A DNA stretch of 64,000 bases, taken from positions 153,779-217,778 of the forward strand of contig JASANG010000768.1 in NCBI GenBank assembly GCA_030248215.1. Direction: 5' to 3'. A program made the translations under genes and the position numbers. The stretch comes from Enoplolaimus lenunculus (Eukaryota; Nematoda; Enoplea; Enoplida; Thoracostomopsidae). Positions 3,250-56,408 of this stretch are shown piece after piece (position 1 is the first letter of the stretch; each line of letters begins with the position of its first letter). The notes under the pieces were generated by a model. That model worked only from the letters and a program-made list of their open reading frames with translations, was not told the DNA's origin and did not search any database.

Positions 3250-3445
3250 GGTCAATGTAAAGAACAGGGACGGAACAGTATTATAAACATGTTCCTAAGC
3301 CTAAGCCTAAGCCTAAGCGTAAGAATGAGTATATTTGTAAGCCTAAGCCTAAAGCCTAAGGCAAGCAATAAAAGTAGTCTGAAGTTTAAGCTTACTCTAT
3401 TGCGTCCAACAGAAAAACGTTCCGCCCCTGATCTTTACATGGGCC
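3250..3445. mobile_element. Telomere-repeat-carrying MITE (subfamily A)
   Basis: Type copy of a short element with terminal inverted repeats GGTCAATGTAAAGAACAGGG and (right end, reverse-complemented) GGCCCATGTAAAGATCAGGG. It is flanked by a perfect 8-bp duplication, CAATATTG, at 3242-3249 and 3446-3453. The interior is an array of CCTAAG/TTAGGC variants (AAGCCTAAGCCT, GCGTAAGAATGAG) followed by a conserved tail, AAGCTTACTCTATTGCGTCC. No transposase is encoded. The 8-bp duplication suggests mobilisation by a hAT-type transposase; that assignment is inference. Confidence 0.85.
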
Positions 3446-3494
3446 CAATATTGGCAGAACCAATAAAACATTGCAATACAAAAACGCTTAGCGT

Positions 3495-3725
3495 AGCGCA
3501 GTTTCGTTCGTCGACATACGTCACCGTCCATCACCATACGGTATCGTATGTCAGTGATTTGTGCACGATTCCGCATGGTGACGCACGGCGACGGATGTGT
3601 GACGGACGGCGCCGTACGACTGATGGACGACGACGGACGGCTCCGTACGGATGACGGACTGTGACGGACGGCGTCGTGCGCGTGACGAGCGGGACCGGAC
3701 TTTATCAAAAATATAGCGCCACCCT
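3495..3725. repeat. GACGG-rich repeat element, copy 1
   Basis: A GC-rich island in AT-rich DNA, made of GACGGACGGCGCCGTACG variants and ending in TATCAAAAATATAGCGCCACC. Related copies lie at 25130, 33085, 37240 and 50590. ORFs through it are arginine- and aspartate-rich and look like chance translations. The next 330 bases, to 4057, show nothing else. Confidence 0.65.
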
Positions 3726-4065
3726 TAATCCCTCGCTTGTGATTTGACACTCGTTTACTTACATCTTGTGGAAATTCAGTTGTACATGAAGCATGTGTTA
3801 ATTGTTAAACACTGCGCATCGTGTTATTAATTGCATGTGCATAGTTTACAATTAGATGCTCGTAGTACACGATGTGCAGCAAAGGGTTAAGGCCTGAACA
3901 CCAACTCCATACCGCCCATATGGGGCCCATCCCAACGAAGGGCCCCCACTCTAAAAAAGTACTCGGTCCCCTGAATATTGGGGACCGTACCCTAGCCGGC
4001 TCCGGCATTGAATATACATTAAATTTGTTCGATGCGATTATAGCTCAAATTTCTTTAAAGAAATT

Positions 4066-4256
4066 GGGCAATGTAAAGAACATGAGCGGAACTCTATTAT
4101 AAGCATAATCCAAAGCCTAAGCCTTAGCGTAAAAATGAGCATATTCCTAAACCTAAAGGTGAAGCCTAAAGTCAAGCAAAAAATTAGTCTAAAGCTTAAG
4201 CTCATTCTATACTGGTTTCCCAAAAAAACGTTTCGCCCCTAATCTCTACATGGGTC
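4066..4256. mobile_element. Telomere-repeat-carrying MITE (subfamily A)
   Basis: Same family as the copy at 3250. The inverted ends are GGGCAATGTAAAGAACATG and GACCCATGTAGAGAT. Flanks AAGAAATT (4058-4065) and AAGATATT (4257-4264) match at 7 of 8 bases. The telomere-like core is short and degenerate. Confidence 0.8.
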
Positions 4257-5040
4257 AAGATATTTTATATTTTACAGTAGTTGCGATACTGATCGTTTGG
4301 TAATCACGAATTTACGCTGATTTTATATTCATTTGAGGTATAAAGTTTACCAAAAGTCAAACAGTCTACAAGATACGGTGCCCTCAATTGTGGATATTCG
4401 GAGAGAATTTGTACTAAATTGAAATTTTAAGAATATTTTTTAAAATTTCAAAAAGGTTGGGTTGCTTTCAGTCTACAAGTGTCCTAAACATGCCTTAATA
4501 CTTGAGGCGATAACTGCATCAAAAACATGCACTCGATTAATTTATCATAGTTTCTTTTTCAAAGTGTTCCACACTTGCAAACATTATTTTACTGGGACCC
4601 GTACCCAGATGGGAGTAGCACGTGAGCTCAGAGCCACTAGCAAATGTTTGACCCACACTAGAAAAGTTTCAACCTTGCTTGTAAGTCATTGGAACCTCTT
4701 TTACGCCCCGACTACAAATTGTCGGCCGCTTAGCAAAGCTGAGCTGGTAACGAGTCGAAATTTTCTATAGCCAGTTGTGAATTTATTGAGACATTGAAAA
4801 TATATTAGAATATTTTCGATTATTGCAACAATTTCTACTAAAGATAACCTGTTTTCCATGAAATTCATAGAAACAATAACGGGCGGCTGTGAAAAAATAC
4901 CGAAAACGATATTTCTTGTTATTTTGCGTATTATTAGTTTAATGCAAAAAAATAACCTCAGGGCCAAACGCTGCAGAATAACTCAATTTCTAAAAAGACT
5001 TTATTCAAAACTAATTTCTAAGGATTAAATTATACTTCTT
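4257..5040. other. No feature seen
   Basis: AT-rich sequence. The short ORFs on both strands show no signal peptide, domain or splice-consistent structure. Confidence 0.4.
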
Positions 5041-5068
5041 TGTACGATTACTCACAATAACAAAAATT

Positions 5069-5377
5069 CGCCCGTGTAAAAGATCAGGGTCGGAACGTTT
5101 TTCTGTGCGCATAGAAAAGAGTAAGCTTAAGCTTTAGACCAATTGTTTGGTTGGCTTAAAGTCACAATAACAAAAATTCGCCCGTGTAAAGATCAGGGTC
5201 GGAACGTTTTTCTGTGGACCTAGAAAAGAGTAAGCTTAAGCTTTAGACCAATTTTTTGCTTGGCTTGGGCTTGGCTTAGGGTTAGGCGTAAGAATATGCA
5301 CATTCTTACACTAGGCTTAGGCTTAGGCATAGGAATATGCTAATAATACTGTTCCGCCCCTGTTCTTTATATTGGCC
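5069..5377. mobile_element. Telomere-repeat-carrying MITE with partial duplication
   Basis: The left end (CGCCCGTGTAAAAGATCAGG) occurs twice, at 5069 and 5179, each time preceded by the same ACAATAACAAAAATT. About 110 bp of flank plus left end is therefore tandemly duplicated. The right end is TTCTTTATATTGGCC at 5377. The flanks CAAAAATT and TAAAAAGT share 6 of 8 bases. A TTAGGC-type array fills the middle. Confidence 0.75.
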
Positions 5378-5754
5378 TAAAAAGTTTAGGCGTGGGCAGG
5401 AACATACACAAGTGTAATAGGGAAATATAACTGAACGTTAATTTATACGAAAAAACACTAAAATCACTTTTAAAGGCTGTAGAATAAGCTGCAGAAGTAA
5501 AGAAAATAATTTTCTTGCTCGCTACGCTAGCTCGCACCAAACTTACAAGGTTAACAGTTTCTGACCAAATATTATGCGCTGGTTTTAGATACTATGCTCG
5601 TTTGAAAATACGGCCTTAAAATTAAAACTTTCAAATTTGGCTTTCCTGTGTATACTTCGAATAGATGGATTTAATATTATTGGAAAACAATAATTATATT
5701 AATCAACAGCAAATATTGTACCATATGTGCTAATTCCCTAAAGATCTTTTGCGG

Positions 5755-5830
5755 TGTGACTCAAACCTACGGTCTACGGCTTACCGTTCCGCTGCTTGCT
5801 AACGTTGGACTATAGCAATGCTGGGCACCG
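5755..5830 (-). repeat. tRNA-like fragment
   Basis: On the minus strand, TATAGTCCAACGTTAGC resembles a box A and GTAGGTTTGAGTC a box B. The stems do not pair well enough for a tRNA gene, so it is probably a SINE head or tRNA pseudogene. The surrounding bases 5378-6164 show no gene. Confidence 0.35.
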
Positions 5831-6164
5831 GAAAAAACCAACGGAAAGAACGGATTTTGAGAATTTTTTGTCTTTTCGAACGAGTGGAAAAAACACAAAA
5901 AACGAAAAAAAAACTTTTTTATAAAAATAAACTGAAATTTTACAAAAATAATCCATGAAATAAGTTTTTAGTTAAAAACTGGCCACATTTAAAGCTTTTA
6001 AAGACTGACTTGAAGTTTTACAACCTCATTGTCATCACAAATTTGAAGAGGTGGACAGAAAAAATTACACGATTGTACTGAAGGTTTGTGGGATTTTAAG
6101 TAAAATTTACCCGCAGAACCAAAACTTTTTCAGAAAAAAATATATTTTTTCTTTAGTATTCGTT

Positions 6165-6460
6165 GTATCAAGAGTGCATGATACAAGAGTGTGCAACTCT
6201 TTGGGCTCCACATGGTACAAAATGTACCACCGGGTGTTGCGTTCTTGGCCGCTCCACGCTTTGTTTAGACGGGGGTCGCTGTCACATGCAATAACACTAA
6301 ATTAAATTATATGCAGAGCAATTTGTTGCCGGATAGATAAAGTGTCATGGTTCGCATAGGTTGTACCTCCTCTAAATAAAGGGTGGTGGGCCAAAAAACG
6401 CAACACGTGCCGGGTACATTATTTTCTGCACAGAATGTACCCAGTTGCAATCTCTTGTTA
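6165..6460. repeat. CACTCTTGTA / GGGTACATTCT repeat, copy 1
   Basis: Contains GAGTGTGCAACT, GTACAAAATGTACCACCGGG, GTTGCGTTCTTGGCC and a mirrored half with CGCAACACGTGCCGGG and ACAGAATGTACCC. The same arrangement recurs at 19180, 43915, 52100, and in both arms of the palindrome at 58900 and 63230. It is probably a family of non-autonomous elements. Confidence 0.6.
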
Positions 6461-6634
6461 TGCGGCGTTCACGTGATAACTGGGGCATCCCGGAACACGT
6501 TTTGTCCCATGTTGATTCGACGTCAAAATAAAATTTTGTGATCTGAATAGCGGTTTGGTGACAAAATGTAACCCGCTATTGTAATAGGGACAAAACGTGT
6601 TTCAGGCTGCCCCAGTTATAATGGAAACCCCGCA
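6461..6634. mobile_element. Harbinger-like MITE (TGCGGGGTT ends), copy 1
   Basis: The ends are TGCGGCGTTCACGTGATAAC and the inverted CCAGTTATAATGGAAACCCC-GCA. A subterminal inverted repeat includes ACAAAACGTGTTTC. The second copy at 30364-30677 is flanked by TTA on both sides, which fits the 3-bp TWA target of PIF/Harbinger elements. Here the flanks are TTA and GTA. Confidence 0.6.
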
Positions 6635-11659: not shown

Positions 11660-11777
11660 ACTAACCTAATTGTAAGCCTAAGCCTATAAGCCAAGCAAAA
11701 AAATTAGTCTAAAGCTTAAGCTAACTCTATTGCAGTCCCACAGAAAAACGTTCCGCCCCTGATCTTTACATGGGTCC
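11660..11777. mobile_element. Truncated telomere-repeat MITE
   Basis: The right half of the family described at 3250: a short GCCTAAGCC core, TAGTCTAAAGCTTAAGCTAA, then the right end CTGATCTTTACATGGGTCC. The left TIR is missing. Confidence 0.7.
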
Positions 11778-13490: not shown

Positions 13491-13687
13491 GGCCCATGTA
13501 TAGAACAGGGCCGGAACAGTAGTATAAGCATATTCCTAAGCTTAATCCTAAGCCTAAGCATATAGATGAGCCTATTCCTCAGCCTAAGCCTATGCCTACG
13601 CCTAAGCAAAAAAATTAGTCTAAAGCTTAAACTGACTCTATTATAGCCCATCCGGAAAACGATCCGGCCCTGTTCAATACATGGGCC
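13491..13687. mobile_element. Telomere-repeat-carrying MITE (subfamily B)
   Basis: Type copy of subfamily B. The ends are GGCCCATGTATAGAACAGGG and (reverse-complemented) GGCCCATGTATTGAACAGGG. Flanks GGTTTATG (13483-13490) and GGTCTATG (13688-13695) agree at 7 of 8 bases. The core has CCTAAGCCTAAGC and related hexamers, then TTAGTCTAAAGCTTAAACTG. B differs from A mainly in CCGGAAAACGATCCGG replacing the A-type right subterminal sequence. Confidence 0.85.
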
Positions 13688-17271: not shown

Positions 17272-17400
17272 GGACCATTGTAAAGATCAGCAGCCGACCG
17301 TTTTTCTGTGGGACTGCAATAGAATAAGCTTAACTTTTGACTAATTTCTCGCTTAGGTTTATGCTTAAGCTTGGATTCATGATTAGTTATAAGGTACCAA
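17272..17400. mobile_element. Truncated telomere-repeat MITE (left half)
   Basis: Starts GGACCATTGTAAAGATCAGC and continues TTTTTCTGTGGGACTGCAAT as in subfamily A, with a short TTAGGTTTATGCTTAAGC run. The right TIR is missing. Confidence 0.65.
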
Positions 17401-17457: not shown

Positions 17458-17647
17458 GGCCCATGTAAAGATCAGGGGCGGAACGTTTTTCTGTGGGACT
17501 AGAAAAGAGCAATCTTAAGCTTTAGACTAAGTTTTTTTCTAGGATTAGGCTTAGGCTTAGGCTTAAGAATAAACTCATTCTTACGCTTACGCTTAGGCTT
17601 AGGAATGTGCGTACAATACTGTTTCGCCCCTGTTCTTTACATTAGCC
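17458..17647. mobile_element. Telomere-repeat-carrying MITE (subfamily A), perfect TSD
   Basis: Flanked by a perfect 8-bp duplication CCTCATTT (17450-17457 and 17648-17655). The ends are GGCCCATGTAAAGATCAGGG and (reverse-complemented) GGCTAATGTAAAGAACAGGG. The core has four or more exact TTAGGC units. It is one of the best copies for defining the family. Confidence 0.9.
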
Positions 17648-18620: not shown

Positions 18621-18751
18621 TGCTCATGTAACAATTAGTGGCGGAACTGCAATACAATTAGCATAATCTTTAGACTATTTTTGCTCAAACTAAAACTTAG
18701 GCTTACGAATGAGCTTATACTGCTCTTACGGACCTGTTCTATACATTGGCC
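18621..18751. mobile_element. Degenerate telomere-repeat MITE
   Basis: Flanked by CATGTACA on both sides (18613-18620 and 18752-18759). It keeps GTGGCGGAAC, a few TTAGGCTTACG hexamers and the right end CTGTTCTATACATTGGCC. Confidence 0.65.
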
Positions 18752-25919: not shown

Positions 25920-26115
25920 GGCCCATGTATTGAACCGGGCCGGATCGCTTTTCAGAGAGGCTATAATAGAGTCAGTTTAAGTTTTAGACTAATTTTTTGC
26001 ATAGGCTTAGGCTTAGGCTTAGGAATAGGCTCATTCATACACTTAGGCTTAGGTTTAGGCTTAGGTTTGGGAATATGTTTATACTACCGTTCCGGCCCTG
26101 TTCTATGCATGGGCC
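25920..26115. mobile_element. Telomere-repeat-carrying MITE (subfamily B), perfect TSD
   Basis: Flanked by a perfect 8-bp duplication ATATGGCA (25912-25919 and 26116-26123). The ends are GGCCCATGTATTGAACCGGG and (reverse-complemented) GGCCCATGCATAGAACAGGG. The core has TTAGGC units in the plus orientation. It ends 267 bp upstream of the Dpr-like gene start codon. Confidence 0.9.
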
Positions 26116-29300: not shown

Positions 29301-32161
29301 ATTCTATACGTGTGCGCTTGGAACAGAACCACCTCAAACGTTTCAAGTTCACCTTTCTGTTATTGGTAAGGTTGTTTTTTATAAATCTATATATTAAAAC
29401 TGGAAAGCCCCACATGCGTATTTTAGACAACTTTGCAGCATTACTTTGTTTACAATAATTTGTTAGGAAATACACGTGATTGTTCTATGAAAAGAAAATG
29501 TGCAAGTAAATTTTAATGGTTTCGCTAACGTTTCTGCATTACGCAAAGCTGGTAGACTAGTTTTAAATATTTCTAAACTGCTGTATAAATAGCAAACTTT
29601 AAAAGTCTTTTGATTCAACAAATGTAAACTTATGGGTTTTTCAAATATTTTCAATCAAATGTGTCCAGGCCCGTAGACAGCTGCTAGGAGATATAAAAAC
29701 ATTCAGGAGTTGCGCGGATCCATGCAGCACCGTGGGATGACAAACGACGCCCCTGTTCTCGGCGAAAAGGGGGAGCCCTTTGGAAAGACAGAATAAATAT
29801 CAGTCACTCTCTTATTCGGGTCACTACAGTACATTACAAACTCGTCGCAGTATTTTGGAAATTGTATAGTGAAAGTTGCGTTTACGTATTGTTGTTTTAG
29901 AATTTGATGCAAAAATTACAGGGCCTGAAGTGGTATGGGTGGGAGGTACAATAGTGTTACGTTGTGATATTTATCTGGATTCCGCAAATGTCGCCAAAGA
30001 TTCGATCAAAAGTGTTAAAGGATCTACAAAGGTGGTCAACGATAACAAGCCGCCACATATCCGATGGTATCATAATAAACGTGCCATGCTTCTTGAAGGA
30101 AAACGTAAGTTGGGGTTTGCACATCAACTACAGAAACAGCATCGGAACCAGAAATTTTAGACGGGGGGATCAGGCTGGCAAAAGTTTGGAAACGCAATTT
30201 TCACAGTATTCGATATATTTGACAATTTTCTTAGAAGAAAAAAATTGACAGGTACAGGGACCTTGTCATTTTATCACAAAAAATTTTTGACGGGGGTCGT
30301 ACACCTCCGCTTCCTTTCTGAATCCGCTAGTGTACAAGAAAACCCATTTCTACGTTTTATATTATGCGGGGTTATCGTTATAACCGGGGCAGGCGGGACA
30401 CGGTTTGTCCGATGTTGATTCGACGTCAACGTTAAAATTTGGGCTCTTATATCGGGTCAACAGACAAAACTCGAATGTCATATGGCATTAGCTTACAAAC
30501 CACCGCTCTCAAATGTTTAATGTGTACAAGAGTCGGTATGTCACATGATAACGAATATCATATAATATTCAGCGGGACTGTGAAATCTTCGCGTGCTTAT
30601 GCAGACAAAATGTTACCCAATAGTCTAATAATACAAACCGTGTCCCAGGTTGTCCCGGTTAGAACGTGAACCCCGCATTAACCCTTTCTCCCATCAATTA
30701 TTTTCAATTTCATATGAGGATAAATTTCGACGTAAGATTCTATCCCCGGTCTCACGGGTGGGAGGCGTTTACGATGACCACTGAGCTATAGGAGCTTGAC
30801 GCTCGAGCCCGAGTAGGCTCTCACGTCTTGCGGAGGTTTTGCACTGCGCATATATGTTATAAATGTGAACTGTGCTCACAGTGTCTGTATTGCTCATACA
30901 TTATGGTATTTAGTTGTTCATAGTATACTCTATGAGTGAGAGGGTTAATCGATGCATTAAAATGTTTGTTATAATTTCACCGCATTACAATATTTGCTGT
31001 GTTTGCATTTATTGCAATTATAATTCAAAGCTAACACGAGCCATGTTTAAAACCTCTGAGCAAAAAATAATAGGAGCGTTGGAATCGTGGATCCGCCACT
31101 GCTGTATTAAATGGAACATTTCAGGTCATTCTGCCGGTGAAGTTAACTTTATCGATGGGAACAAAACTGCGTATGCAACGCTAACGATCACTGGTGTTAT
31201 TGCTGAAGACGCTGGTTTGTACGGCTGCGCAGCGCCTGGCATTACACCTAAGACCATCAGAGTTAAGGTGGACGGTAAGATTGTATTTTGATCTTGTGCA
31301 TATTTTTGGCCCATGTATACAACAAGGTCGAAACAGTAGTATAAGCATATTCCTAATCCTAACCCTAAGCCTAAGCTTAAGCATAAGGATGAGCCTATTC
31401 CTATTCCGAAACCTAAGCCTAAGCATAAAGATAAGCCTATTCCTATTCGTATGCCTAAGCCCAAGCCTAAGCAAAAAAGTAAGTCTAAAGCTTTAAACTG
31501 ACTCTATTACAGCCTGGCCGGAAAACGATCCGGCCCGCTTCTATACATGGGCCATATTTTTAAGGTTTTTGGGCGCTTTTTTCCGTATTTAAGGTTTACG
31601 CTTTACACTTAGGCTTACACTCCGGATTAGACTTTTGACTGAAGACTTGTGCAAAGCCTTGATTTTGACAAGCCTTTGCCTAAGTCTAAGCCTGGACCTA
31701 CGTATTAGGCAAAGCTTAAGGCGGGGAAGTGTACAAGAGTCTATCAAAACATGAACAAATCTTAGATTCCTACTTTTACGGCTAAACCTGAACCTAAGCC
31801 TAAATGTACCATTAAAACTATAACACTGCCGTCTCAAAAAATTGCACGTTTAATAACATTTTTGCAATTGTTTTGCTTGCAAAATGTTATTCTAATGATT
31901 AAACCGAAATAAAATGGCCACAAATGTGATGCGTTACTTAGTTAGTAATAGGTTTTCAAACAAGCAAACATGAATGCGGTACATTTCAAATGTACACAAA
32001 TCGGTTCGCAAATAAATGAAAATAGAGTTCTTTCAGGTGCAAACACTGCTGCAATGACCAAATCTGACGATGCAACTTCTGCCGTATTTCGACCCAGGGC
32101 GACTCCGCTTTTGATTACTCTCATAATCCTATTCCTCGCCTCTACCATGCCCCATTCCTAG
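26383..32161 (+). CDS. Dpr/ZIG-8-like two-Ig cell-surface protein, 8 exons
   Basis: The exons are 26383-26455, 27476-27669, 28219-28353, 28587-28726, 29277-29365, 29901-30104, 31125-31274 and 32037-32161. Every junction is GT-AG with matching phase, giving 369 residues. Residues 1-25 are a signal peptide (NFWIAIIQV). Residues 26-100 are a basic linker with RRHQR. Ig1 (about 105-210) has C123, W137 in VAWMRNSDGRLLTV and DSGFYTC (C193). Ig2 (about 212-328) has C232, W266 and EDAGLYGC (C313). A hydrophobic tail, TPLLITLIILFLAS, ends the protein and suggests a GPI anchor. The WxR...LLTV...TFxSD pattern of Ig1 and the Ig2 end are typical of insect Dpr proteins and nematode ZIG-8, which bind DIP/RIG-5-type Ig partners at neuron surfaces. 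Ig2 carries about 20 extra residues (239-260) between its first Cys and its Trp. Introns hold many MITEs. Confidence 0.85.
26580..26710. repeat. CGTAGCCAGC-type repeat in intron 1
   Basis: CCTCGAAAACACTTCCCCCC, GGAAATTTTCAACTTTGCTT and GTGGGCTACGGGTATG mark a partial copy of the family at 21019. It lies 125 bp after the first exon of the Dpr-like gene. Confidence 0.5.
27725..27960. repeat. ATTTTTTGTGA/CAAAAAATTTT repeat in intron 2
   Basis: Begins GTGAGGGGGGTACGTATACC with CAGAATTTTTTGTGATAAAATG. It is related in reverse orientation to 30165-30325, 38190-38385 and 49025-49405. Confidence 0.45.
28075..28218. repeat. A/T homopolymer-rich stretch before exon 3
   Basis: Repeated AAATTTTTTTAAATTTTTT runs up to the acceptor ATTTTTAG at 28218. 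Confidence 0.7.
28860..29180. repeat. Dispersed repeat (CATTCGGGTTACTACAGTA), copy 2, in intron 4
   Basis: Matches 10660-10965 through ATGCAAGGTTATACTT, ATTGACATTTATG, GACTCAAAATGGGG and TTATTCGGGTCACTACAGTA. A piece of the same repeat recurs at 29745-29850 in the next intron. Confidence 0.65.
29383..29600. repeat. TATATTAAAACTGGAAAGCC repeat in intron 5
   Basis: Shared with the distal part of the TTAA MITE at 12818-13020: CCCCACATGCGTATTTT, TTGTTCTATGAAA and GCATTACGCAAAGC-type blocks in the same order. It starts 17 bp after the donor of exon 5. Confidence 0.6.
30165..30325. repeat. CACAAAAAATTTTTGACGGG repeat in intron 6
   Basis: Contains GATCAGGCTGGCAAAAGTTT and TTATCACAAAAAATTTTTGA, and is shared with 38190-38385 and 49025-49405. 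Confidence 0.55.
30364..30677. mobile_element. Harbinger-like MITE (TGCGGGGTT ends), copy 2
   Basis: Flanked by TTA on both sides. The ends are TGCGGGGTTATCGTTATAAC and (reverse-complemented) TGCGGGGTTCACGTTCTAAC. Subterminal GACACGGTTTGTCC is mirrored by ACAAACCGTGTC. It abuts the TTAA MITE that follows. Confidence 0.7.
30678..30948. mobile_element. TTAA-flanked MITE with tRNA-like body, copy 2
   Basis: Perfect TTAA at both ends (30678-30681, 30945-30948) with CCCTTTCTCCCATCAA and the inverted ACTCTATGAGTGAGAGGG. On the minus strand at about 30735-30800 is a tRNA-like body: TATAGCTCAGTGGTCATCG as box A, CCTCCCACCC as anticodon region and GGGATAGAATC as box B. Confidence 0.8.
31308..31553. 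mobile_element. Telomere-repeat-carrying MITE (subfamily B), perfect TSD, in intron 7
   Basis: Flanked by ATATTTTT (31300-31307 and 31554-31561). The ends are GGCCCATGTATACAACAAGG and (reverse-complemented) GGCCCATGTATAGAAGCGGG. The core alternates CCTAAGCCTAAGC with GATGAGCCTATTCC. It begins 34 bp after the donor of exon 7. Confidence 0.9.
31590..31810. repeat. Degenerate TTAGGC-type array
   Basis: TTTACACTTAGGCTTACAC and CCTAAGTCTAAGCC runs in both orientations with no recognisable ends. It lies in the last intron of the Dpr-like gene. Confidence 0.5.
31915..31990. repeat. CAAATGTGTATAGC-family fragment
   Basis: Reads CCACAAATGTGATGCG, then TTAGTTAGTAATAGGTTTTC. It lies about 50 bp before the last acceptor of the Dpr-like gene. 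Confidence 0.45.
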
Positions 32162-33380: not shown

Positions 33381-33650
33381 ATCCAATGTAAAGAACAGCG
33401 GCAGAACAGTATTATAAGCATATTACTAAGTTTAGCCTAAGCGTAAGAATGAGCGTATTCTTAGTCTAAGCCTAAGCCTAAACGTAAGCGTAAGAATGAG
33501 CGTATTCTTAAGTCTAAGCCTAAGCCTAAGCCTAAGCGTAAGAATGAGCATATTCCTAAGCCTATGCCAAGCAAAAAATAGTCTAAACCTTAAGCTTACT
33601 CTTTTCTAGTCCCACAGAAAAAAGTTCCGCCCCTGATCTTTACATGGGCT
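33381..33650. mobile_element. Telomere-repeat-carrying MITE (subfamily A), long core
   Basis: The ends are ATCCAATGTAAAGAACAGCG and (reverse-complemented) AGCCCATGTAAAGATCAGGG. Flanks GCAAACTC and GAAATCTC share 6 of 8 bases. The core repeats a roughly 60-bp module, CCTAAGCCTAAGCGTAAGAA followed by TGAGCGTATTC, three times. The core has thus grown by module duplication. Confidence 0.8.
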
Positions 33651-35420: not shown

Positions 35421-36252
35421 GTCCTTGTTATGCCAGCGATATAACGATGCTACACGTGTCGCACAATGATTCGCTCAATTCCGTGAATGTGATATGTGGA
35501 TTGTGATTGGCAATATTTCTGAACCGTCTCATGTACTGCGAACGCGAAACGACCTATTAAACAGCCTGTTTATGTATTTAGGTCATGAACAATACAACAA
35601 CAGGTACGCAACGTTTAGACCTGCGACACATTCTGAACTGCACGTTAGCGTTGTGCACTTCAAAGACTTGCCGCTCGGTCATAAATGTTTAGAATGTAAT
35701 TCGACGCAATTGCAATTATTTCAATCGTATACGCCTGATGTATGTTAGGTTGAAAAATCGCTACTTTATGATTTAGCAAAGTTTACCTGTTACTGCTGGC
35801 CACTTTTTAAATTAATGAATCCTGATTTTTATCAAATGCCTTCACAAACGCCATGTTCTCGTCAAACTTTAAGCATCTTTAGCTTAAGTTGTGATCAAAA
35901 TATTGGACTGTGTTCTATGGAACAAGGCGTTCCACCGAAAACCGCCCAACAAGAATGCCTGCCTGAATGCAAACGCTGGGAATATGCAATCAGCTATAGA
36001 TTATCAATTGATGTGCCGACATTTGTTCGTAATCCGAACGATATAAGCTTATATTTGGTACATTCGAGCAAAACGTATACGTCAATGGTTGAAGTTGAAA
36101 CGCTGACGTGGACGGATTATTTGAGTTTGGTTGGCGGATTGTGGGGACTTTGGCTTGGCTCGAGTTTAATTACATTTATTCATATTGCAGTTACGTGTAC
36201 ATGCAGTTTGTTTAGAAGTAATAAAAAGACACTGCAACACAGTGGTGTTTAA
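35421..36252 (+). pseudogene. DEG/ENaC channel, C-terminal region with two in-frame stops
   Basis: One frame from 35422 to the TAA at 36250-36252 encodes the distal half of a DEG/ENaC (degenerin) sodium channel. It starts after a plausible acceptor (CTAATTTAAG). Supporting features are LPLGHKCLEC...FQSYTPDVC, then CYCWP, several spaced Cys, ECLPECKRWEY, and the pore and second membrane segment GGLWGLWLGSSLITFIHI near 36125-36180. The GSS triplet matches the family G/S-x-S filter. The frame is broken by TGA at 35467-35469 and TAG at 35746-35748. A 33-nt intron (35744-35776) could remove the TAG in frame but would lose a conserved Cys codon; nothing simple removes the TGA. No upstream exons with the first membrane segment were found. 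A decayed copy is the simplest reading; sequence error is the alternative. Confidence 0.7.
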
Positions 36253-38636: not shown

Positions 38637-38892
38637 GGCCCATGTAAAGTTCAGGGGTGGAACGTTTTTCGATGGGACTGCAATAGAATAAACTTAAGCT
38701 TTAGACAAATTATTTTGTTTGGCTTAGGCTTACACTTAGGAATATGCTCATTCTTACGTTTAGGCTTAGGCCTAGGAATATGCTGAGTGTTACGCTTAGG
38801 CTTATGCTTAGGTTTAGGGTTAGGCTTATGCTTAGGTTTAGGTTTAGGAATATGCTTATAATAATGTTCCGCCTTTTTTGTTTACATTGGCC
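38637..38892. mobile_element. Telomere-repeat-carrying MITE (subfamily A), perfect TSD
   Basis: Flanked by a perfect 8-bp duplication ACTTTGGC (38629-38636 and 38893-38900). The ends are GGCCCATGTAAAGTTCAGGG and (reverse-complemented) GGCCAATGTAAACAAAAAAG. The long core has TTAGGC, TTACGC and TTATGC hexamers and three GGAATATGCT modules. Confidence 0.9.
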
Positions 38893-39132
38893 ACTTTGGC
38901 GAACTCAAACCTTTTTTAATTCTGAGTGATTTGAATAATCTTTTAAATTTCGGTCAGCTGAAAGAACCCTTTAGGCAAAAAAGTAGCCAGATCTTCTACT
39001 ATAAGGATGGCCAAAATCAATTGCGCATGGTACAAATAGTTACCATGTATTAATCAATTTCTCTCAACCAACATATATTACTGAAATTAGTTTTTTTGCC
39101 AAATTATTCGAGGGACACCATATTCCTATGCC

Positions 39133-39251
39133 CCTGGTCCCGGTTTTCGACCCTGAAGTATTTTGTGAGTATTATTATTATTATTATTGTTATTGTTATT
39201 ATTAATTCCTTTACCCCCTGGTCTCGGTTTTCGACCCTGAAGTATTTTGTG

Positions 39252-39311
<60 letters not shown>

Positions 39312-39759
39312 GTTATTGTTATTATTAATTCCTTTACCCCTCCGGTCTCGGTTTTCGACCCTGAAGTATTTTGTGATTATTATTATTATTATTAATTCCT
39401 TTACCCCCTGGTCTCGGTTTTCAACCCTGAAGTATTTTGTGAGTATTATTATTATTATTATTGTTATTATTATTAATTCCTTTACCCCCCCGGTCTCGGT
39501 TTTCGACCCTGAAGTATTTTGTGATTATTATTATTATTATTAATTCCTTTACCCCCTGGTCTCGGTTTTCAACCCTGAAGTATTTTGTGAGTATTATTAT
39601 TATTATTATTATTTTTATTTTTGTTATTATTATTATTAATTCCATTTACCCCCCCCCCCCAGTTCTCTTTTTTCGACCCTGAAGTATTTTATGATTATTA
39701 TTATTATTATTAATTCCTTTACCCCCTGGTCTCGGTTTTCAACCCTGAAGTATTTTGTG

Positions 39760-39798
<39 letters not shown>

Positions 39799-39940
39799 GT
39801 TGTTATTATTATTATTAATTCCTTTACCCCCCCCCCCCCGGTCTCGGTTTTCGACCCTGAAGTATTTTGTGATTATTATTATTATTATTATTAATTCCTT
39901 TACCCCCTGGTCTCGGTTTTCAACCCTGAAGTATTTTGTG

Positions 39941-39976
<36 letters not shown>

Positions 39977-40520
39977 GTTATTATTATTATTAATTCCTTT
40001 ACCCCCCCGGTCTCGGTTTTCGACCCTGAAGTATTTTGTGATTATTATTATTATTATTAATTCCTTTACCCCCTGGTCTCGGTTTTCAACCCTGAAGTAT
40101 TTTGTGAGTATTATTATTATTATTATTATTATTATTGTTATTATTATTATTAATTCCTTTACCCCCCCGGTCTCGGTTTTCGACCCTGAAGTATTTTGTG
40201 ATTATTATTATTATTATTAATTCCTTTACCCCCTGGTCTCGGTTTTCAACCCTGAAGTATTTTGTGAGTATTATTATTATTATTATTGTTATTATTATTA
40301 TTAATTCCTTTACCCCCCAGGTCTCGGTTTTCGACCCTGAAGTATTTTGTGATTATTATTATTATTATTATTCATTCCTTTACCCCTGGTCTCGGTTTTC
40401 GACCCTGAAGTATTTTGTGATTATTATTATTATTATTATTAATTCCTTTACCCCCTGGTCTCGGTTTTCAACCCTGAAGTATTTTGTGAGTATTATTATT
40501 ATTATTACTATTATTATTCA
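39133..40520. repeat. Compound satellite: conserved 45-bp blocks separated by (ATT)n
   Basis: About 17 copies of a block (TTCCTTTACCCCCTGGTCTC, GGTTTTCGACCCTGAAGTAT, TTTGTGA) are separated by pure ATT runs. From 39340 two versions alternate almost perfectly. One has CGACCC, ends GTGATT and is followed by a short ATT run. The other has CAACCC, ends GTGAGT and is followed by a long run. The higher-order unit is thus a dimer of about 150-170 bp. Poly-C tracts vary in length. ORFs here merely translate the repeat. Confidence 0.9.
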
Positions 40521-41844: not shown

Positions 41845-42163
41845 AGCCCATGTAAAGAACAGGGCCGGAACAGTAGTATAAGCATATTCCTAAGCCTAAG
41901 CCTAAGCCTAAGCCTAGACCTAAGCCTAATCCTAAGCCTAAGCCTAAGCCAGCCTAAGCCAAAAGCCTAAGCCTAAGCCAGCCTAAGCCAAAAGCCTAAG
42001 CCTAAGCCAGCCTAAGCCAAAAGCCTAAGCCTAAGCCTAAGCGTATAAATGAGCCTATTCCAAAGCCTAAGCATAAGCCGATGCAAAAAATTAGTCTAAA
42101 GCTTAAACTGACTCTATTATGGCCCCTCTGGAAAACGATCCGGGCCCGTTCTATACATGGACC
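41845..42163. mobile_element. Telomere-repeat-carrying MITE, longest core
   Basis: The ends are AGCCCATGTAAAGAACAGGG (A-like) and (reverse-complemented) GGTCCATGTATAGAACGGGC (B-like). The flanks AGTTGTTG and AACTGCTG agree at 6 of 8 bases. The core has uninterrupted AAGCCTAAGCCTAAGCC runs and three tandem copies of a 30-bp module containing CCAGCCTAAGCCAAAAG. The hybrid ends suggest recombination between subfamilies. Confidence 0.8.
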
Positions 42164-46698: not shown

Positions 46699-46880
46699 GG
46701 CCATTGTATGGGACAGTGCAGTAACAGTGGTTTAAGCATATTCATGAACCTAAACCAAAGCCTAATCGTAAGAATGAGTTATATCTGAGACTAATGACAA
46801 AGCAAATAATTTTAGTCAAAAGTTTAAGGTTACTCTATTGCAGTCCTGCAGAAAAACAATCCGCATCTGATCTTTGGATC
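46699..46880. mobile_element. Degenerate telomere-repeat MITE
   Basis: GGCCATTGTATGGGACAGTG at the left, CCTAAACCAAAGCCTAATCG in the core and CTATTGCAGTCCTGCAGAAA toward a decayed right end. The preceding 46076-46698 has no recognised feature. Confidence 0.6.
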
Positions 46881-47060: not shown

Positions 47061-47286
47061 GGAACCAAGTAAAGATCAGAGTCGAAACGTTTTTCTATGG
47101 GAATAGAAAAGAGTACGCTTAAGCTTTAGACTTATTTTTTGCTTCGTTTCGGCTTTGGCTTAGGCTTAGGCTTAGGAATATGCTCATTCGTACGCTTCGA
47201 CTTAGGCTTAGGCTTAGGAATATACTCATTGTTACACTTAGAAATATGCTTATAATACTGTTCCGCCCCTGTGGTTTACAATGGCC
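47061..47286. mobile_element. Telomere-repeat-carrying MITE (subfamily A)
   Basis: The ends are GGAACCAAGTAAAGATCAGA and (reverse-complemented) GGCCATTGTAAACCACAGGG. The flanks share only TAATT. The core has two TTAGGCTTAGGCTTAGG runs separated by AATATGCTCATTCGTACGC. Confidence 0.75.
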
Positions 47287-47937: not shown

Positions 47938-48131
47938 GGCCAATGTAATGAACAGGGGCTTATTAAAAGCTGATTTCTAAGCCTAAGCCTAAGCCAAAGT
48001 GTAATAATGAGCATATTCCTAAGTCTAAACCTAATCCTAAGCCTAAACAAAACAAAAAATAGTCTAAACCTTAAGCTTACTGTTTTCTAATCCCACAGAA
48101 AAACGTTCCTTCCCTGATCCTTACATGGGCC
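47938..48131. mobile_element. Telomere-repeat-carrying MITE (subfamily A)
   Basis: The ends are GGCCAATGTAATGAACAGGG and (reverse-complemented) GGCCCATGTAAGGATCAGGG. The core is CCTAAGCCTAAGCC and GTCTAAACCTAATCCTAAGC. The flanks are diverged. Confidence 0.75.
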
Positions 48132-49473: not shown

Positions 49474-49711
49474 GGCCCACGTTACTTTAAGGGGCGTCCT
49501 GGTTTCTGGTGGGTTCATATAAGAGTAGGTTTACATTGTAGAATATATTTCTTAGCTTTGGCTTAGGCTTAGGCTTAGGGTTACGCTTAGGAACACATTT
49601 TTGCAACGCTTAGGTTTAGGCTTAGGCTTAGGAACACATTTTTGCAACGCTTAGGCTTAGGCTTAGGAATGCGCTTAATCTACTGTTACGCCCCTTAAAG
49701 TAACATTTGCC
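49474..49711. mobile_element. Telomere-repeat MITE with variant ends (subfamily C)
   Basis: The ends are GGCCCACGTTACTTTAAGGG and (reverse-complemented) GGCAAATGTTACTTTAAGGG. Flanks GGTATTTC and GATATTTC agree at 7 of 8 bases. The core has TTAGGCTTAGGCTTAGG runs and two exact GAACACATTTTTGCAACGC modules. The ends differ from A and B, but the 8-bp duplication and core type are the same. Confidence 0.8.
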
Positions 49712-50432: not shown

Positions 50433-50544
50433 GGCTTACGTAAAGATCATCGGCGAAACGTTTTTCTGTGGGACTGGAATAGAGTAACGTAAAGGTTCGG
50501 AATATGGTTATAATACTGTTCCGCCACCGTTCTTTACATTGGCC
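50433..50544. mobile_element. Minimal telomere-MITE without an array, perfect TSD
   Basis: Only 112 bp, flanked by a perfect AAGGTTAG duplication (50425-50432 and 50545-50552). The ends are GGCTTACGTAAAGATCATCG and (reverse-complemented) GGCCAATGTAAAGAACGGTG. It keeps both A-type subterminal regions, but the interior is essentially one GGAATATGG module with no TTAGGC repeats. Confidence 0.85.
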
Positions 50545-50589
50545 AAGGTTAGAAAACAAGTCCAAGAAAGCTTCAGAGACCATGAATAT

Positions 50590-50745: not shown

Positions 50746-50809
50746 AGTAATTTTATTTTGAAGTTATGCGCTTCCGAAATAATATACTGTCTGAGCCGAA
50801 AAACTACAA

Positions 50810-50930
50810 GCTGGCCGAGACAGAATTCCCCCCCCTCCCTAGAGAATATTCAACCTTGCTTGTAACACATCGAAAACACTTGTATACCCCTTCTGACCAA
50901 TATGAGCTGGCTACAGGCCTGTAACTGTTG
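50810..50930. repeat. CGTAGCCAGC-type repeat
   Basis: Contains CCCCCCTCCCTAGAGAATATT, given in part, then CAACCTTGCTTGTAACACA and GAGCTGGCTACAGGCCTG. The next 540 bases, to 51474, show no gene. Confidence 0.55.
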
Positions 50931-51474
50931 CTCCTGATTTTCTGGCTGTGGCAGAAAATGATGAAATATGATTTATTTTCTACGAACATTTATTTTGCTG
51001 ATTCCAAAATTCCAAAATGGGTGTTGTGAGGTGTATAACAGTGAAACAAACTCTCGAGCAAAGCGAGCTAGAAGCCAAACACAATTTTAGTACTAAATCG
51101 TAAATACAAAATTTTGATTTTGATCCCTGTTGGAAGGTCATGGCGTATTAAGTATGGCTCATTGCTATTAGGTATATCCGCTAGCATCTACACACATATA
51201 AAAGCGTAGTACTGTAGAAATGTGGCGATTTTGATGGTGACAGTAGCATTTTGGTCTGAATACACTCGCGTGGTGTCGTATTACCTCGCCCGTTATTTCA
51301 CGTATGTATTTACTGTATCTGGAATCTGGTATTTTTTCTAATGAAGGTATCAGAAGTTCGAATCGGCACACGTTGATTAATCTCATACCAGCGTTCATAT
51401 CGAACCTGTGTTTAACTTTTATCATCAGTTGATTGGCTCCAGGGTACGCAAGTTTCGATACGGTCAATGAACTA

Positions 51475-51800: not shown

Positions 51801-51890
51801 CTTGAAATTCAATGTTTTAATGATTAAAAAACATTCATTTTTGGTGCATTTTGACGGAAAATCCTTCATAAAGACGGTGCAATTTGATTG

Positions 51891-52099
51891 GGTCAATGTA
51901 TAGAACACGGTCGGCTCAGTAGTATAAGCATATTTCCTAAGCCTAAGCGTATGCCTAAGCCTAAGCGTAAAGATGAGCCTATTCCTAAGCCTAAAACTAA
52001 GCCTAAGCGTAAGCCTAAGCAAAAAAGTTAGTCTAAAGCTAAACTGACTCTATTACACCAACGCCGGAAAACGATCTGGCCCTGTTTTATACATGGGCC
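51891..52099. mobile_element. Telomere-repeat-carrying MITE (subfamily B)
   Basis: The ends are GGTCAATGTATAGAACACGG and (reverse-complemented) GGCCCATGTATAAAACAGGG. The core has CCTAAGCCTAAGCGTAAAGA modules and ends AACTGACTCTATTACACC. The flanks TTTGATTG and TTTGGCAA match weakly. Confidence 0.8.
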
Positions 52100-52668
52100 T
52101 TTGGCAACTGACGTGCTACTCTATGGCACAAAATGTACCACCGCGCGTTGCATTTTCGACTGACCCCCATATATATAAAGGTTGGCGAAAAACGCAAGAA
52201 TTGCTCAAGAATATAAGGTGGTCACTTATGTTAAAGCAAATTATCAATGGGTTTTCGTCAAATAAGCAAAACTTGACCCCCCTTAAATAAAGGGTGGGTA
52301 TGCCGAAAACACAACGTGCGCTGGGTACATTCTTTTCTACACAAAATGTAGCCAGTCGCACACTCTTGTATTAACGAGCAATCATTCACTTTTGATAGTA
52401 TTAAAAGTATATTATATAATAATAGACTGTGGCACTTCACCACAGTCTGCATTATATGCATGAAACGTCCCATGGTTCTAAAGGCAAGGTACCCCATTGA
52501 CTAAGGGGGCATTAGCCCATGCATAATGTATACAAACATTGGATCGAGATGTGGCATCTAAGTATTCATGCTTTGTACATATTATGCATGTGCTAATACC
52601 CCCTCAATCAAGAGGGTATTTAGCCTTTGGGACTGTGCGACTTTTCATGCATAATGCAGATTGTGGCG
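52100..52668. repeat. CACTCTTGTA repeat, copy 3
   Basis: Mirrored blocks GGCACAAAATGTACCACCGC and TTCTACACAAAATGTAGCC flank AAAGGTTGGCGAAAAACGC and GGGTGGGTATGCCG. The outer part has TGCATAATGTA and ACATTATGCAT pairs. Confidence 0.5.
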
Positions 52669-52669
52669 A

Positions 52670-52918
52670 CACCGTAAATTTCAGTGAGTTGATTTTAACT
52701 CAGAATCAATTCAATCACTCAGTCTGAGTTGCGACTATCAAAATTCAGAATTTTGAGTGATTCAATTCATTCTGAGTTAATCAACTCACCCAGAGTCTAC
52801 TCAACTCAGAGTGAGAATCAACACAATTCAGAGTGAGTTAATGTTTACTGATATTAGTTTAGAAATAACTAATACTCGCTAGCTGAATTGATTAATCAAA
52901 TCATTGAAATTTACACCG
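52670..52918. mobile_element. GAGTTGA-rich MITE, copy 3
   Basis: Inverted ends are CACCGTAAATTTCAGTGAGT and (reverse-complemented) ACGGTGTAAATTTCAATGAT. The interior is AGTTAATCAACTCACCC and similar. It ends 104 bp before the GPCR start codon and so may lie within its promoter region. Confidence 0.7.
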
Positions 52919-53022
52919 TACATGTCTTCATATGCGCCATCTGATTGAATGCGTTTAGAATATATATCATTCATAACTCGTAATATTCCATTATCCCAAT
53001 TAACCTTCGTACCATCAACATC

Positions 53023-55308
53023 ATGAATATGACCAACTCAACTCAAATCAACACCATATCCCCTGCGGATTTCATCGTTTTCGTCGTCTTGGAAACGTTG
53101 GGATTGTTTGGACTGTTAGGCAACTCATTACTGGTTATGCTAATTTGTAAATACGGACACATCGCTAAACCATCATTTATATTAATTGTTAGCTTAGCAG
53201 TTGCCGATTTAGTTCACAGCATAATCACTTCGTTCTATTTCCACCCGCCGATTTTGTTACGGTATAATCATTTAAGCTATGGAGCATACCGAGCCGCTAA
53301 CGTTATCGATTGGTCCGCGTGGGGAGTAACGTTAACGCATATGAGTGCAATATGCATTGATAGACTACTTGCAATTACCCTGCTGAACGCGTATTCAGAA
53401 GTAGTTACCGTAGTCAGATATGCTATATTTAGTCTATTAACATGGACAATATTTATAATTGCTAATTTATCATTAGCGCTTATAAATGCATGCTGCCCGA
53501 TTGTTCCGTTGCCCGAATATTATACGTTCGGATATGAAGAACCTCGATCAGAAAAATTCTACACCCTGTATCCGGTTATTAATACGACCGGAAGTGAGAC
53601 GGAAACGATTGAAGTAAACGTGGAAATGAGCAATTTTTCGTGGTCCGTATCGTATAGTAATATTTATCCGAATATTTATATACCGTTGGAAGTGATGACA
53701 ATGATAATATTGGCAGTTTGCACTCCTATCACCATCGTTCAACTATTTCAACGATATAAACGCAAAACTAATTTACGTACCGCCGGCGCTATGCTTGCCG
53801 GAATCGGAACCGGATTGGTTACCGTGCAAGCGGCAGCGTTTTTGAGATCAGCCAATCAAAATCGAGCTGACGACACGTCACAAATATCGCATAATGTTGT
53901 GAATAGGCAAAATGTCGCGTGCAACGGCACCGCAAGCGGTCACGTGTACCGTCAGCGGCGACATCAAAAATTTTTAACTCACGTTCAACAACGCTACAAA
54001 TCTGCTCCGAAGTCGCGAAAATCGCTCATCGCTTTTGATGCGGCGACTCGACGTGAGTTGAAAATTTTCGTTCAAATTATTACAGTTACGTTGATATTTT
54101 TTGCGTATATGGCAAATTATTATTTATTTTTCTACATAGTTGGTATGGTTGACAATAAATGGATAACAATGATGAACTCGCTGTTCTATTCGTTTACTCA
54201 CTGCATCAATCCAATTGTAATTCTTTCAATGAATCATCAAATGCGACGAAATTTAACTGATTTTTCCGTTCGAATTGTTCGAACTACCGTTCAACTGAAA
54301 CGAACTGTAACTCGAAACAAGAGTCGCAACAACTCTACTATGGTCCAACTTCAAACATCTCCCAATCTTGGTTCCGGTAGGCGACAAATACCCCACCCAC
54401 AGCCAGGTCAGCATCGAGAAATAAATGGCTTCGAACGCGACGAAGGTAGCGATACTAAAATACCTGGTTTACCCACGAAACCAAACAGAGATGGTGTCAA
54501 AAATTTAAACCAAAATTCTGGGGACCACCGCCAAAACAAGTCCGGGTATAAACCCTTAAAGACCACATCACCCAATGGCAGTGCTTGTGACAGTTCACCA
54601 ACGAGTTTAAACGGTGAACATTCGTCTCAGATTAATATTCATGTTCAATCGAACGATTGTCATCATTTGTCGACTGCGCAAGTCTTTGAATTCAGCGATC
54701 CGAGTTTTACGCACCGATGCACTTGCAATTGTAGTACAACAGAAACTGCATTAGCAACACATAGTAATAAATTGCAAAATATGTTGCGTCACAACAATAC
54801 GTACGTTCAGGATTCGAAATGCAAGTGCAATTGTGACTCACCTACAAGGATTCCAGGAGATCCACAATTTTCCTCTTGTATTCCGCCGTTCAAATTATCC
54901 GACACCTTAATTTCAAATTCAAATTTCAACTTGTGTTCACTTCAACATTCAGCAACCAATCCAACGCTGAGTACTTCATTTGCATATTGTCGAAAGTTGT
55001 CCGGGGGTTCAGTTGAAATTATTCGTCCCACAGGTCTACGACCCTCGCTTACACTGCAATCACTCGCCCCGTACATACATTATCGTTGTAATTCGAAGAC
55101 AAATTCTATAAACTGTCGAGATAATGCGTCAATTTTGTCAAATTTATCACAATTTTGCCATCCGGACACGTACAGACTGTTCTATGGTGGAGATACAGCG
55201 ATTGTTTACTATACAATTATCGAAGAACCGGAACCGGAAACGGGAAATGCGAAATTAATCAGTTTTAAGCCGTTGAAATTTGTCGCCGAAACAGATATTT
55301 TGCTGTGA
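53023..55308 (+). CDS. Class A (rhodopsin-like) orphan GPCR, single exon, 761 aa
   Basis: An uninterrupted ORF begins at an ATG followed by N-glycosylation sites (NMT, NST). Seven membrane segments are visible: about 17-42 (GLLGNSLLVMLI, N34), 50-72 (SLAVAD, D62), 93-118 (SAICIDRLLAI, DRL 113-115 in place of DRY), 130-155 (W141), 217-242, 347-374 and 380-402 (HCINPIVIL, NP at 396-397). This order and these motifs define class A. Departures from the consensus are DRL, no CWxP in segment six, NPxxI for NPxxY and no Cys at the top of segment three. The third intracellular loop is about 100 residues. The tail is about 355 residues, with Cys clusters (CTCNC, CKCNC near 575-625). The gene has no introns, unlike its neighbours. 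The ligand is unknown; I cannot place it in a named subfamily. Confidence 0.85.
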   Translation: MNMTNSTQINTISPADFIVFVVLETLGLFGLLGNSLLVMLICKYGHIAKPSFILIVSLAVADLVHSIITSFYFHPPILLRYNHLSYGAYRAANVIDWSAWGVTLTHMSAICIDRLLAITLLNAYSEVVTVVRYAIFSLLTWTIFIIANLSLALINACCPIVPLPEYYTFGYEEPRSEKFYTLYPVINTTGSETETIEVNVEMSNFSWSVSYSNIYPNIYIPLEVMTMIILAVCTPITIVQLFQRYKRKTNLRTAGAMLAGIGTGLVTVQAAAFLRSANQNRADDTSQISHNVVNRQNVACNGTASGHVYRQRRHQKFLTHVQQRYKSAPKSRKSLIAFDAATRRELKIFVQIITVTLIFFAYMANYYLFFYIVGMVDNKWITMMNSLFYSFTHCINPIVILSMNHQMRRNLTDFSVRIVRTTVQLKRTVTRNKSRNNSTMVQLQTSPNLGSGRRQIPHPQPGQHREINGFERDEGSDTKIPGLPTKPNRDGVKNLNQNSGDHRQNKSGYKPLKTTSPNGSACDSSPTSLNGEHSSQINIHVQSNDCHHLSTAQVFEFSDPSFTHRCTCNCSTTETALATHSNKLQNMLRHNNTYVQDSKCKCNCDSPTRIPGDPQFSSCIPPFKLSDTLISNSNFNLCSLQHSATNPTLSTSFAYCRKLSGGSVEIIRPTGLRPSLTLQSLAPYIHYRCNSKTNSINCRDNASILSNLSQFCHPDTYRLFYGGDTAIVYYTIIEEPEPETGNAKLISFKPLKFVAETDILL

Positions 55309-55544
55309 ATAGAAGTGATCCAAAACGTCAGGTTTCAAGTTTTTTGAGTGCTCTCAGTTGATTGCTAATAACCAGTGATGGATCCAGGTGTATTTGACGC
55401 AGCTTGAGCTGTATGTGTACACTACTTATAAGCTCTGGCGAACAAAGCGAGCGATAAGCGACCACCCTTTAGTCGGTGCAATACAACAGTAATGTTTTTA
55501 GTAGTTTTGTATTCATGTTCAAAGAGCGTTTGAATTAAATTAAA

Positions 55545-55650
55545 CCCAATGTAAAGAACAGGGACGGAACAGTATTATTGGCATATTCCTAAGCCTTACT
55601 CTTTTCTAATCCCACAGACAAATGTTCCGCCCCTGACCTTTACGTGGACC
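55545..55650. mobile_element. Minimal telomere-MITE with residual core
   Basis: 106 bp between AAATTAAA and AAATGAAA (7 of 8). The ends are CCCAATGTAAAGAACAGGGA and (reverse-complemented) GGTCCACGTAAAGGTCAGGG. Only one CCTAAGCCTTAC is left between the two A-type subterminal regions. Confidence 0.8.
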
Positions 55651-55904
55651 AAATGAAATCTATTAACTTTACGACTCGTGGTAAAAGGGTTTTGAGATAA
55701 TGAAAAAATTGGCTAAAATTTCCCTGTAAGTGACACTCAAGCGTGGTTTAACTCTATGTTAATCGTGGTCCAAATTTTGTGAGCCGTCTATCAAAGGTAA
55801 GAATTATAAAATTACAAAACCATATCTAAGACTGATTATGACCATTTACGTGCTTTTTATTGTATTCACAATTAAAAATATAAAAACATTAAGTCAAAGC
55901 CACC

Positions 55905-56075
55905 GGGCTCGTAGCCAAGGGAGACGCCAGGGTGGGCTCAGCCCCCTGAAATAATTTTGCCCCCCCTAGAAAGTTTTCAACCTCGCTTGTAACTCATTGA
56001 AAACGCTTGAATGCCTCTCCAGAACCATTTTAGTCCCCCCACTTTAGCAAGGCTAGCTGGCTACTGGCCTGAAAT
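55905..56075. mobile_element. CGTAGCCAGC-type MITE
   Basis: CCGGGCTCGTAGCCAAGGGA at the left and TAGCTGGCTACTGGCCTG at the right form inverted ends. GGGTGGGCTCAGCCCCCTGA and AACCTCGCTTGTAACTCATT lie inside. Confidence 0.7.
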
Positions 56076-56234
56076 CCACCGCAATCTGTTGTATTTCATT
56101 CTATTTTTCCAGTAAACGTCAAAACAATCAAAAACATTTTAATATCATCCGGTCGTAAAGCTCTGAGTCAAAAATCCTAATACCGTAATTGTACCACAAA
56201 AAGATGCGTAATATTGAAAAACCTTCGCAAATCC

Positions 56235-56408
56235 GGTCTGTGTATAGACAAGGAGCGGACCCTGTTTTTCCCGTGCACCTGCAATAGGCTAAGCTTAAGA
56301 TTTAGACCAATTTTAGGCTTAGGCTTAGGCTTATGTGTAAGCTAATCCTTGCGCTTAGGCTCAGGCTATGGTTATACTGTTGTTATGGCCCTGATCTATA
56401 CATTGACC
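56235..56408. mobile_element. Telomere-repeat-carrying MITE (subfamily B)
   Basis: The ends are GGTCTGTGTATAGACAAGGA and (reverse-complemented) GGTCAATGTATAGATCAGGG. Flanks GCAAATCC and GCAACTCG share 6 of 8. A short TTAGGCTTAGGCTTA core is present. The following 340 bases, to the Ig exon, show nothing. Confidence 0.75.

Follow-up and report, generated by a model that had tools for sequence, protein, structure and literature searches.

The repeat TTAGGC makes up most nematode telomeres (PMC9071541), and scattered, degenerate tracts of it are also found inside the chromosomes of Caenorhabditis. In that review of nematode chromosomes, which cites Frenk 2019, C. elegans is credited with 1,229 interstitial tracts, head-to-head fusion is regarded as an unlikely source of such tracts in Caenorhabditis, and it is said to remain "a mystery" why the arms of animal chromosomes hold so many interstitial telomere tracts. 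In primates, interstitial telomeric sequences have reportedly been attributed to the repair of chromosome breaks. Transposition by mobile elements appears in PMC6410037 only as a possible origin, for large heterochromatic interstitial telomeric blocks. That a small transposon can spread and expand an internal tandem repeat is illustrated by the (GTCY)n elements of Lepidoptera and the tandem-repeat MITEs of Xenopus (PMC6947457 and PMC9659126). Among the superfamilies to which such elements may belong, Merlin is marked by GG ends, inverted repeats of 24–462 bp and duplications of 8–9 bp (PMC8101967).

Here we describe a family of MITEs in the nematode Enoplolaimus lenunculus that carry the telomere-type hexamer as part of their body. 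Leaving the question of superfamily apart, we give a probability of about 0.85 to the reading that the TTAGGC array moves by transposition of this MITE, with duplication of 8 bp of target.

Results

A family of elements with paired ends

The genome is a 296-Mb assembly of 3,185 contigs (GCA_030248215.1), and the window, by which we mean the whole 64,000-nucleotide stretch that was analysed, is C345:153779-217778 (contig JASANG010000768.1). The original prediction, made from the letters of the window, had recognised a family of insertions with inverted ends and TTAGGC inside, and such a family is present: under a strict rule, by which each of both ends must lie within 6 mismatches of 24, the window contains 16 paired copies of 107–319 bp, with inverted ends and, in nearly all, TTAGGC hexamers between them. 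When up to 3 mismatches are allowed, the end motif GGCCCATGTAAAGATC is found 31 times in the window against 0.33 expected from shuffles, and TTAGGCTTAGGC likewise has 31 window matches against 0.01 expected; genome-wide, the exact end motif occurs in 4,348 copies and its reversed control in none.

Together with 34 copies from elsewhere in the assembly, the paired set numbers 50 (16 from the window, 26 from loci fetched by the end motif, 4 from array loci and 4 from other loci), and the 38 of these that are 140–260 bp long and contain TTAGGC supplied the profile and the consensus. Searching the window with this profile yields 27 merged element-derived stretches. Their density is 422 per Mb in the window, 367 per Mb in ten random 3-kb pieces and 82 per Mb around Merlin, hAT and telomerase loci, which suggests a copy number in the tens of thousands for the genome, profile matches to the array alone being counted in. 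Copies diverge from the consensus by a median of 8.5% (41 copies). The elements are short, non-coding, present in many copies, bounded by paired inverted ends and flanked by target duplications, and in all these respects are MITEs. An Rfam search of the window gave no match.

The consensus, 196 bp long in the 38 paired copies, opens with GGCCCATGTAAAGATCAGGGGCGGAAC, followed by about 60 bp of unique sequence, about four units of TTAGGC and a AATATGCTCATTCTTACG-type spacer; about four further TTAGGC units, AATATGCTTATAATACT and the second inverted end, which is GGCCAATGTAAAGAACAGGGGCGGAAC read from the outside in, complete it. The ends take the form GGCC(C/A)ATGTAAAGA, and GGCC is the consensus start of both across 47 oriented copies, the first base being G in 43 of 47 at one end and 42 of 47 at the other. 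The two can nevertheless be told apart, one being a GATC end and the other an AAC end, and the array reads away from the GATC end in every one of the 32 copies whose ends are distinguishable (16 of 48 are ambiguous). In a second subfamily the ends are of TATAGAAC type. The earlier description of the interior as built from TTAGGC/GCCTAA hexamers is thus right as to the blocks of about four TTAGGC, but it overlooked the spacers between them, and the copies at 50433 and 55544 have no TTAGGC.

The individual copies in the window (strands follow the reading direction of TTAGGC) range from intact to heavily reduced. Perfect 8-bp duplications flank the full elements at 3250..3445 (-; CAATATTG), 17458..17647 (+; CCTCATTT) and 25920..26115 (+; ATATGGCA), the elements with expanded interiors at 31308..31553 (-; ATATTTTT) and 38637..38892 (+; ACTTTGGC), and an internally deleted copy without TTAGGC at 50433..50544 (+; AAGGTTAG). 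These six duplications had been named in advance, and all prove to be perfect and to abut the element ends; a seventh, CATGTACA, can be added, around a shortened element at 18621..18751 (+) that was absent from the earlier list. The duplication agrees at seven of eight bases around the full elements at 4066..4256 (-) and 13491..13687 (-; the latter of the subfamily with the alternative ends), and at six of eight around the full elements at 5179..5377 (+; its first part also present in tandem at 5070-5158) and 47062..47286 (+) and an element at 33381..33650 (-) whose interior has expanded with a 48-bp period. Agreement is five of eight at 41845..42163 (-; an expanded interior with 17 GCCTAA units) and at the full element 47938..48131 (-), and four of eight at the full element 51891..52099 (-). 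A second internally deleted copy without TTAGGC, at 55544..55650 (-), was identified by its paired ends and the profile. Truncated copies with a single end lie at 11665..11776 (-; end motif and profile) and 17273..17381 (+; profile), and diverged copies at 46699..46875 (-; near-full, profile positions 10-196), 49474..49711 (+; expanded interior, two profile hits) and 56235..56408 (+; profile, outside the strict set of 16).

Expanded interiors in the window are higher-order repeats of 29–48 bp (29–54 bp overall), and at C5:156798-158373 nine spacer-linked tracts extend across 1.5 kb. On C4 (L029 1482-1822, and L030) a 153-bp tandem unit holds the element ends, as in a MITE turning into a satellite. 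The window also contains a compound array at 39131-40512, in which TAT runs are joined to a unit holding GGTCTCGGTTTTCGACCCTGAAGTATTTTGTG; two large minisatellites at 60005-62778 with a common 24–25/49-bp unit, one on each strand; an open frame of 774 residues for a rhodopsin-type receptor at 52984-55308; and the C-terminal part of a DEG/ENaC-type sodium channel at 35749-36252.

Evidence for transposition

When the two flanks of the 50 paired copies are compared, identity reaches 0.76 at a length of exactly 8 bp, against 0.24–0.36 at lengths of 4–7 and 9–13 bp. The duplications are 8/8 in 15 copies, 7/8 in 12, 6/8 in 7, 5/8 in 6, 4/8 in 4 and 2/8 in 6. Hence 27 of the 50 pairs agree at seven or eight positions, against 0.3% at 7/8 and none at 8/8 among 2,450 mispaired flanks, and for these 50 copies the tabulation of flanking 8-mers proposed alongside the original prediction gives matches well above chance; the other 23 pairs agree at six positions or fewer, six of them at just two. 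The 16 window copies divide into seven at 8/8, two at 7/8, three at 6/8, two at 5/8 and two at 4/8. By source, perfect and 7/8 duplications number 7 and 2 in the window, 5 and 9 at end-motif loci, 2 and 0 at array loci, and 1 and 1 at other loci.

A search for empty sites, also proposed at the outset, compared 26 joined flanks with the fetched DNA and the window and found one true case, a related site with a single copy of the target. The element at L084 has GAGATGCC on both sides, and a relative of the repeat around it at 51035..51134 of the window (+; 79% identity) has a single TAGAAGCC, one 8-bp target, and no element. Six joined flanks searched across the assembly for an insertion-free second allele gave half matches and no empty allele. 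A local span considered as the empty site of the copy at 13491 was dropped, being a match to TTAGGC.

The orientation of the array is fixed, its distance from the ends is fixed, the spacer is shared and the duplications lie outside the whole unit, all of which argues that a single ancestral array moved together with the ends.

The share of short tracts explained

It is informative to ask how much of the interstitial TTAGGC the element accounts for. The sample was 170.5 kb chosen independently of ends and arrays, consisting of the window, random pieces and the Merlin, hAT and telomerase loci, and a pure tract of at least two repeats was counted as near an element if a profile hit on the same strand, with an end region included, lay no more than 250 bp away. 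By this rule 30 of 35 pure tracts are in or near an element (22 of 25 in the window, five of six in the random pieces and three of four in the others). Under a stricter rule, by which the tract must fall wholly inside one profile hit, the count is 14 of 21 merged tracts in the window, and all four tracts of the random 30 kb pass as well; of the seven tracts missed in the window, two run across split copies. Most of the sampled short interstitial telomere-type tracts are therefore in or beside one small, very abundant mobile element.

The junctions of the tracts can also be followed genome-wide. Tracts with at least three repeats have 23,211 3′ ends in the assembly, and 5,298 of these continue exactly into the element's AATATGCTY, whereas the reversed control finds 75 tract ends. 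The next base is A in 86 of 100 tract ends among the matches listed; if free tracts end equally in A, G and T, these listed ends would make about 79% of tracts element-like. At least one A-ending tract among the matches listed, at C1:36750 (L031), is without element ends.

Because the carried unit is the nematode telomere hexamer, the MITE would create interstitial telomeric sequences. The hexamer could instead be an ordinary minisatellite that grew inside a MITE, its identity with the telomere repeat of nematodes being accidental. Element interiors do expand as higher-order repeats of the lengths given above, and MITEs with hitchhiking microsatellites are already known, reportedly from Coates 2011 and Hikosaka 2004. 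Yet the match to TTAGGC is exact among what we estimate to be some hundreds of possible hexamer classes, and pure arrays reach 78 units, so that we regard coincidence as unlikely.

Long pure arrays

The long arrays present a different picture. Among the matches listed, eight sites have at least 20 pure repeats, and four of these lie inside element ends, with pure TTAGGC runs of 78 units (L053), 21 (L097), 22 (L099) and 65 (L100) and duplications of 7/8, 8/8, 2/8 and 8/8, respectively. The other four (L094, L095, L096 and L098) are without element ends, a truncated element adjoining the array at L096. None of the four shorter array sites examined in addition (L031, L036, L048 and L052), from a listing with four more, is inside element ends, so that among the matches listed the tally for all long-array sites examined is 4 of 12 inside element ends and 8 of 12 without.

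With four of the eight arrays of at least 20 repeats outside elements, transposition is not the whole explanation. The original claim that transposition directly explains the interstitial repeats thus holds for most of the sampled short tracts and fails for most of the long-array sites examined; put otherwise, the short tracts mostly have element ends and the long pure arrays mostly lack them. Within elements, the badly diverged ends around 78 pure repeats at L053 suggest growth after insertion, and the perfect duplication around 65 pure repeats at L100 is compatible with either a young insertion carrying its array or later growth.

The sites without ends, together with the presence of a telomerase gene in the genome, speak for a reversed account, in which break repair, telomerase or chromosome fusion made each tract separately and elements were inserted into or next to them later. 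The constancy of the short tracts in orientation, distance and spacer, with duplications outside the unit, points to one ancestral array instead, and we attach very little credence to the reversed order of events.

The superfamily of the element

The original prediction called the family hAT-like, and duplications of 8 bp are indeed typical of hAT elements. The genome has 45 hAT dimerisation-domain matches, and CAGGGGCGG, which is found 15 bases inside each MITE end, resembles hAT ends. The ends of hAT elements begin C/T-A-x-x-G, and their duplications favour nTnnnnAn, with T at position 2 and A at position 7. The MITE duplications abut GGCC rather than CAGGG or any such hAT start, and the base preference is absent from them (T at 2 in 6 of 27, A at 7 in 6 of 27). 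The sole hAT delimited among the eight of 45 loci examined, L086 1165-2202, has CAGGG ends (CAGGGATG) with a perfect 8-bp GTGATGTG on both sides, and these eight loci contained no paired MITE-like ends besides MITE insertions and one unpaired end at L093. That end has 5 mismatches and, though it lies beside a hAT fragment, faces away from it; it was set aside. The suggested search for a hAT transposase with the same terminal repeats thus found none at the loci scanned, and a MITE mobilised by a hAT transposase now seems improbable.

Merlin fits better. Like Merlin elements, the MITE has inverted repeats that start with GG and an 8-bp duplication. This genome has 15 matches to the Merlin transposase (PF12762, DDE_Tnp_IS1595), and the Merlin elements at L065, L069 and L071 start GG(C/T)(G/A)AAGGTAC and are flanked by perfect 8-bp duplications; in two further ones the duplications are 7/8 or ambiguous in register. 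Of 15 bases, the AAC end of the MITE shares 11 with this genome's Merlin end (the better end having been picked) and the GATC end shares 9, and a match of 11/15 or better is found in 13 of 127,970 genomic 15-mers and in 10 of the 4,783 that start with GG. Among the Merlin elements, those at L065, L066, L069, L071 and L072 have GG(C/T)(G/A)AAGGTAC ends with inverted repeats that reach 417 bp, and L072 435-843 is a non-coding Merlin relative with a GG start and a perfect 8-bp duplication.

Around the 15 Merlin and 8 of the 45 hAT matches, about 1.5 kb to each side, there was no transposase gene with MITE ends; the inverted ends with target duplications at the scanned transposase loci were those of Merlin elements with other ends and of the one CAGGG hAT, and none was a partner. 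A weak end-like match at L074 and others at 7–8 mismatches of 24 were taken as noise. At eight loci where the end motif had no clear partner, we read the open frames by eye and recognised no transposase. Given that no autonomous partner with MITE ends was found in the flanks scanned, we label the element Merlin-type and do not treat it as a proven member of Merlin.

The same result, at the Merlin and hAT loci scanned, speaks for another superfamily with 8-bp duplications, such as P, or an extinct lineage with no transposase left in the genome, as mobiliser of the MITE; given the median divergence of 8.5% from the consensus (41 copies), the source may have died. The GG start shared with Merlin and the partial resemblance to Merlin ends of the same genome speak against this, as does the search for MULE transposases, with no PF10551 match in the genome (the control matched in 3 of 14 genomes). 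Such an origin is rather doubtful, and judging by its ends and duplications the MITE is probably of Merlin type, and likelier so than of hAT type.

Discussion

The element described here combines features of systems that have been known separately. With Merlin (IS1595/IS1016-like) elements and their MITEs it shares GG inverted ends, 8-bp duplications and a short non-coding body, and its ends agree in part with those of Merlin elements in this genome, at 11 of 15 bases on one side and 9 on the other; unlike them, it has two ends that differ from each other and a telomere-type array inside, and no transposase was found with its ends at the loci scanned. As in the lepidopteran and Xenopus elements, an internal tandem repeat is spread and expanded, but here the carried unit is the nematode telomere hexamer. 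The scattered, degenerate TTAGGC tracts recall those of Caenorhabditis as described in PMC9071541, from which this genome differs in having a transposon boundary on most sampled short tracts and in having tracts that are far more numerous, with the caveat that the counting rules differ. The internal arrays without element ends at L036, L094, L095 and L098 are similar to primate sequences reportedly ascribed to break repair, whereas the MITE-borne tracts differ from these in that they have a boundary in common and are flanked by target duplications.

The following sequence of events probably accounts for these observations. One ancestor element would have acquired or grown a telomere-type TTAGGC array, and this array-bearing version would then have been copied many times by a transposase supplied in trans, which most likely belonged to the Merlin (IS1595-like) superfamily. 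Once inserted, the array can grow in place, either as a higher-order repeat of 29–54 bp or into a pure stretch of TTAGGC that reaches 78 units. Most short interstitial tracts, and some long ones, would derive from transposition and subsequent expansion on the spot, and the long arrays without element ends would need a second, separate source.

One can go further and imagine that a transposon lineage took up the host telomere repeat and so became a mobile, self-spreading interstitial telomeric sequence, its arrays regrowing where they lie until they hold dozens of pure units, perhaps through telomerase or telomere-type recombination, and with many internal sites that might template the rescue of telomeres or be where chromosome fusions begin. 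We offer this wider picture only tentatively. The genome has 116 matches to the cuticle-collagen domain, which marks nematodes, and one match to the telomerase RNA-binding domain, in an open frame of 729 residues; we take it to be that of a nematode with telomerase. The telomerase reverse transcriptase gene, with long open frames, is at L101.

In the open-licence full-text papers searched we found no report of a MITE carrying TTAGGC. As far as these searches show, the present case is new: a countable instance of a telomere-type repeat as the cargo of a MITE, with the element's boundary on most of the sampled short tracts. The carrier, its boundaries, the target duplications and an empty site are all visible, and the share of tracts explained can be counted. 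A practical consequence is that internal TTAGGC should be checked for element ends before it is read as the scar of a chromosome fusion.
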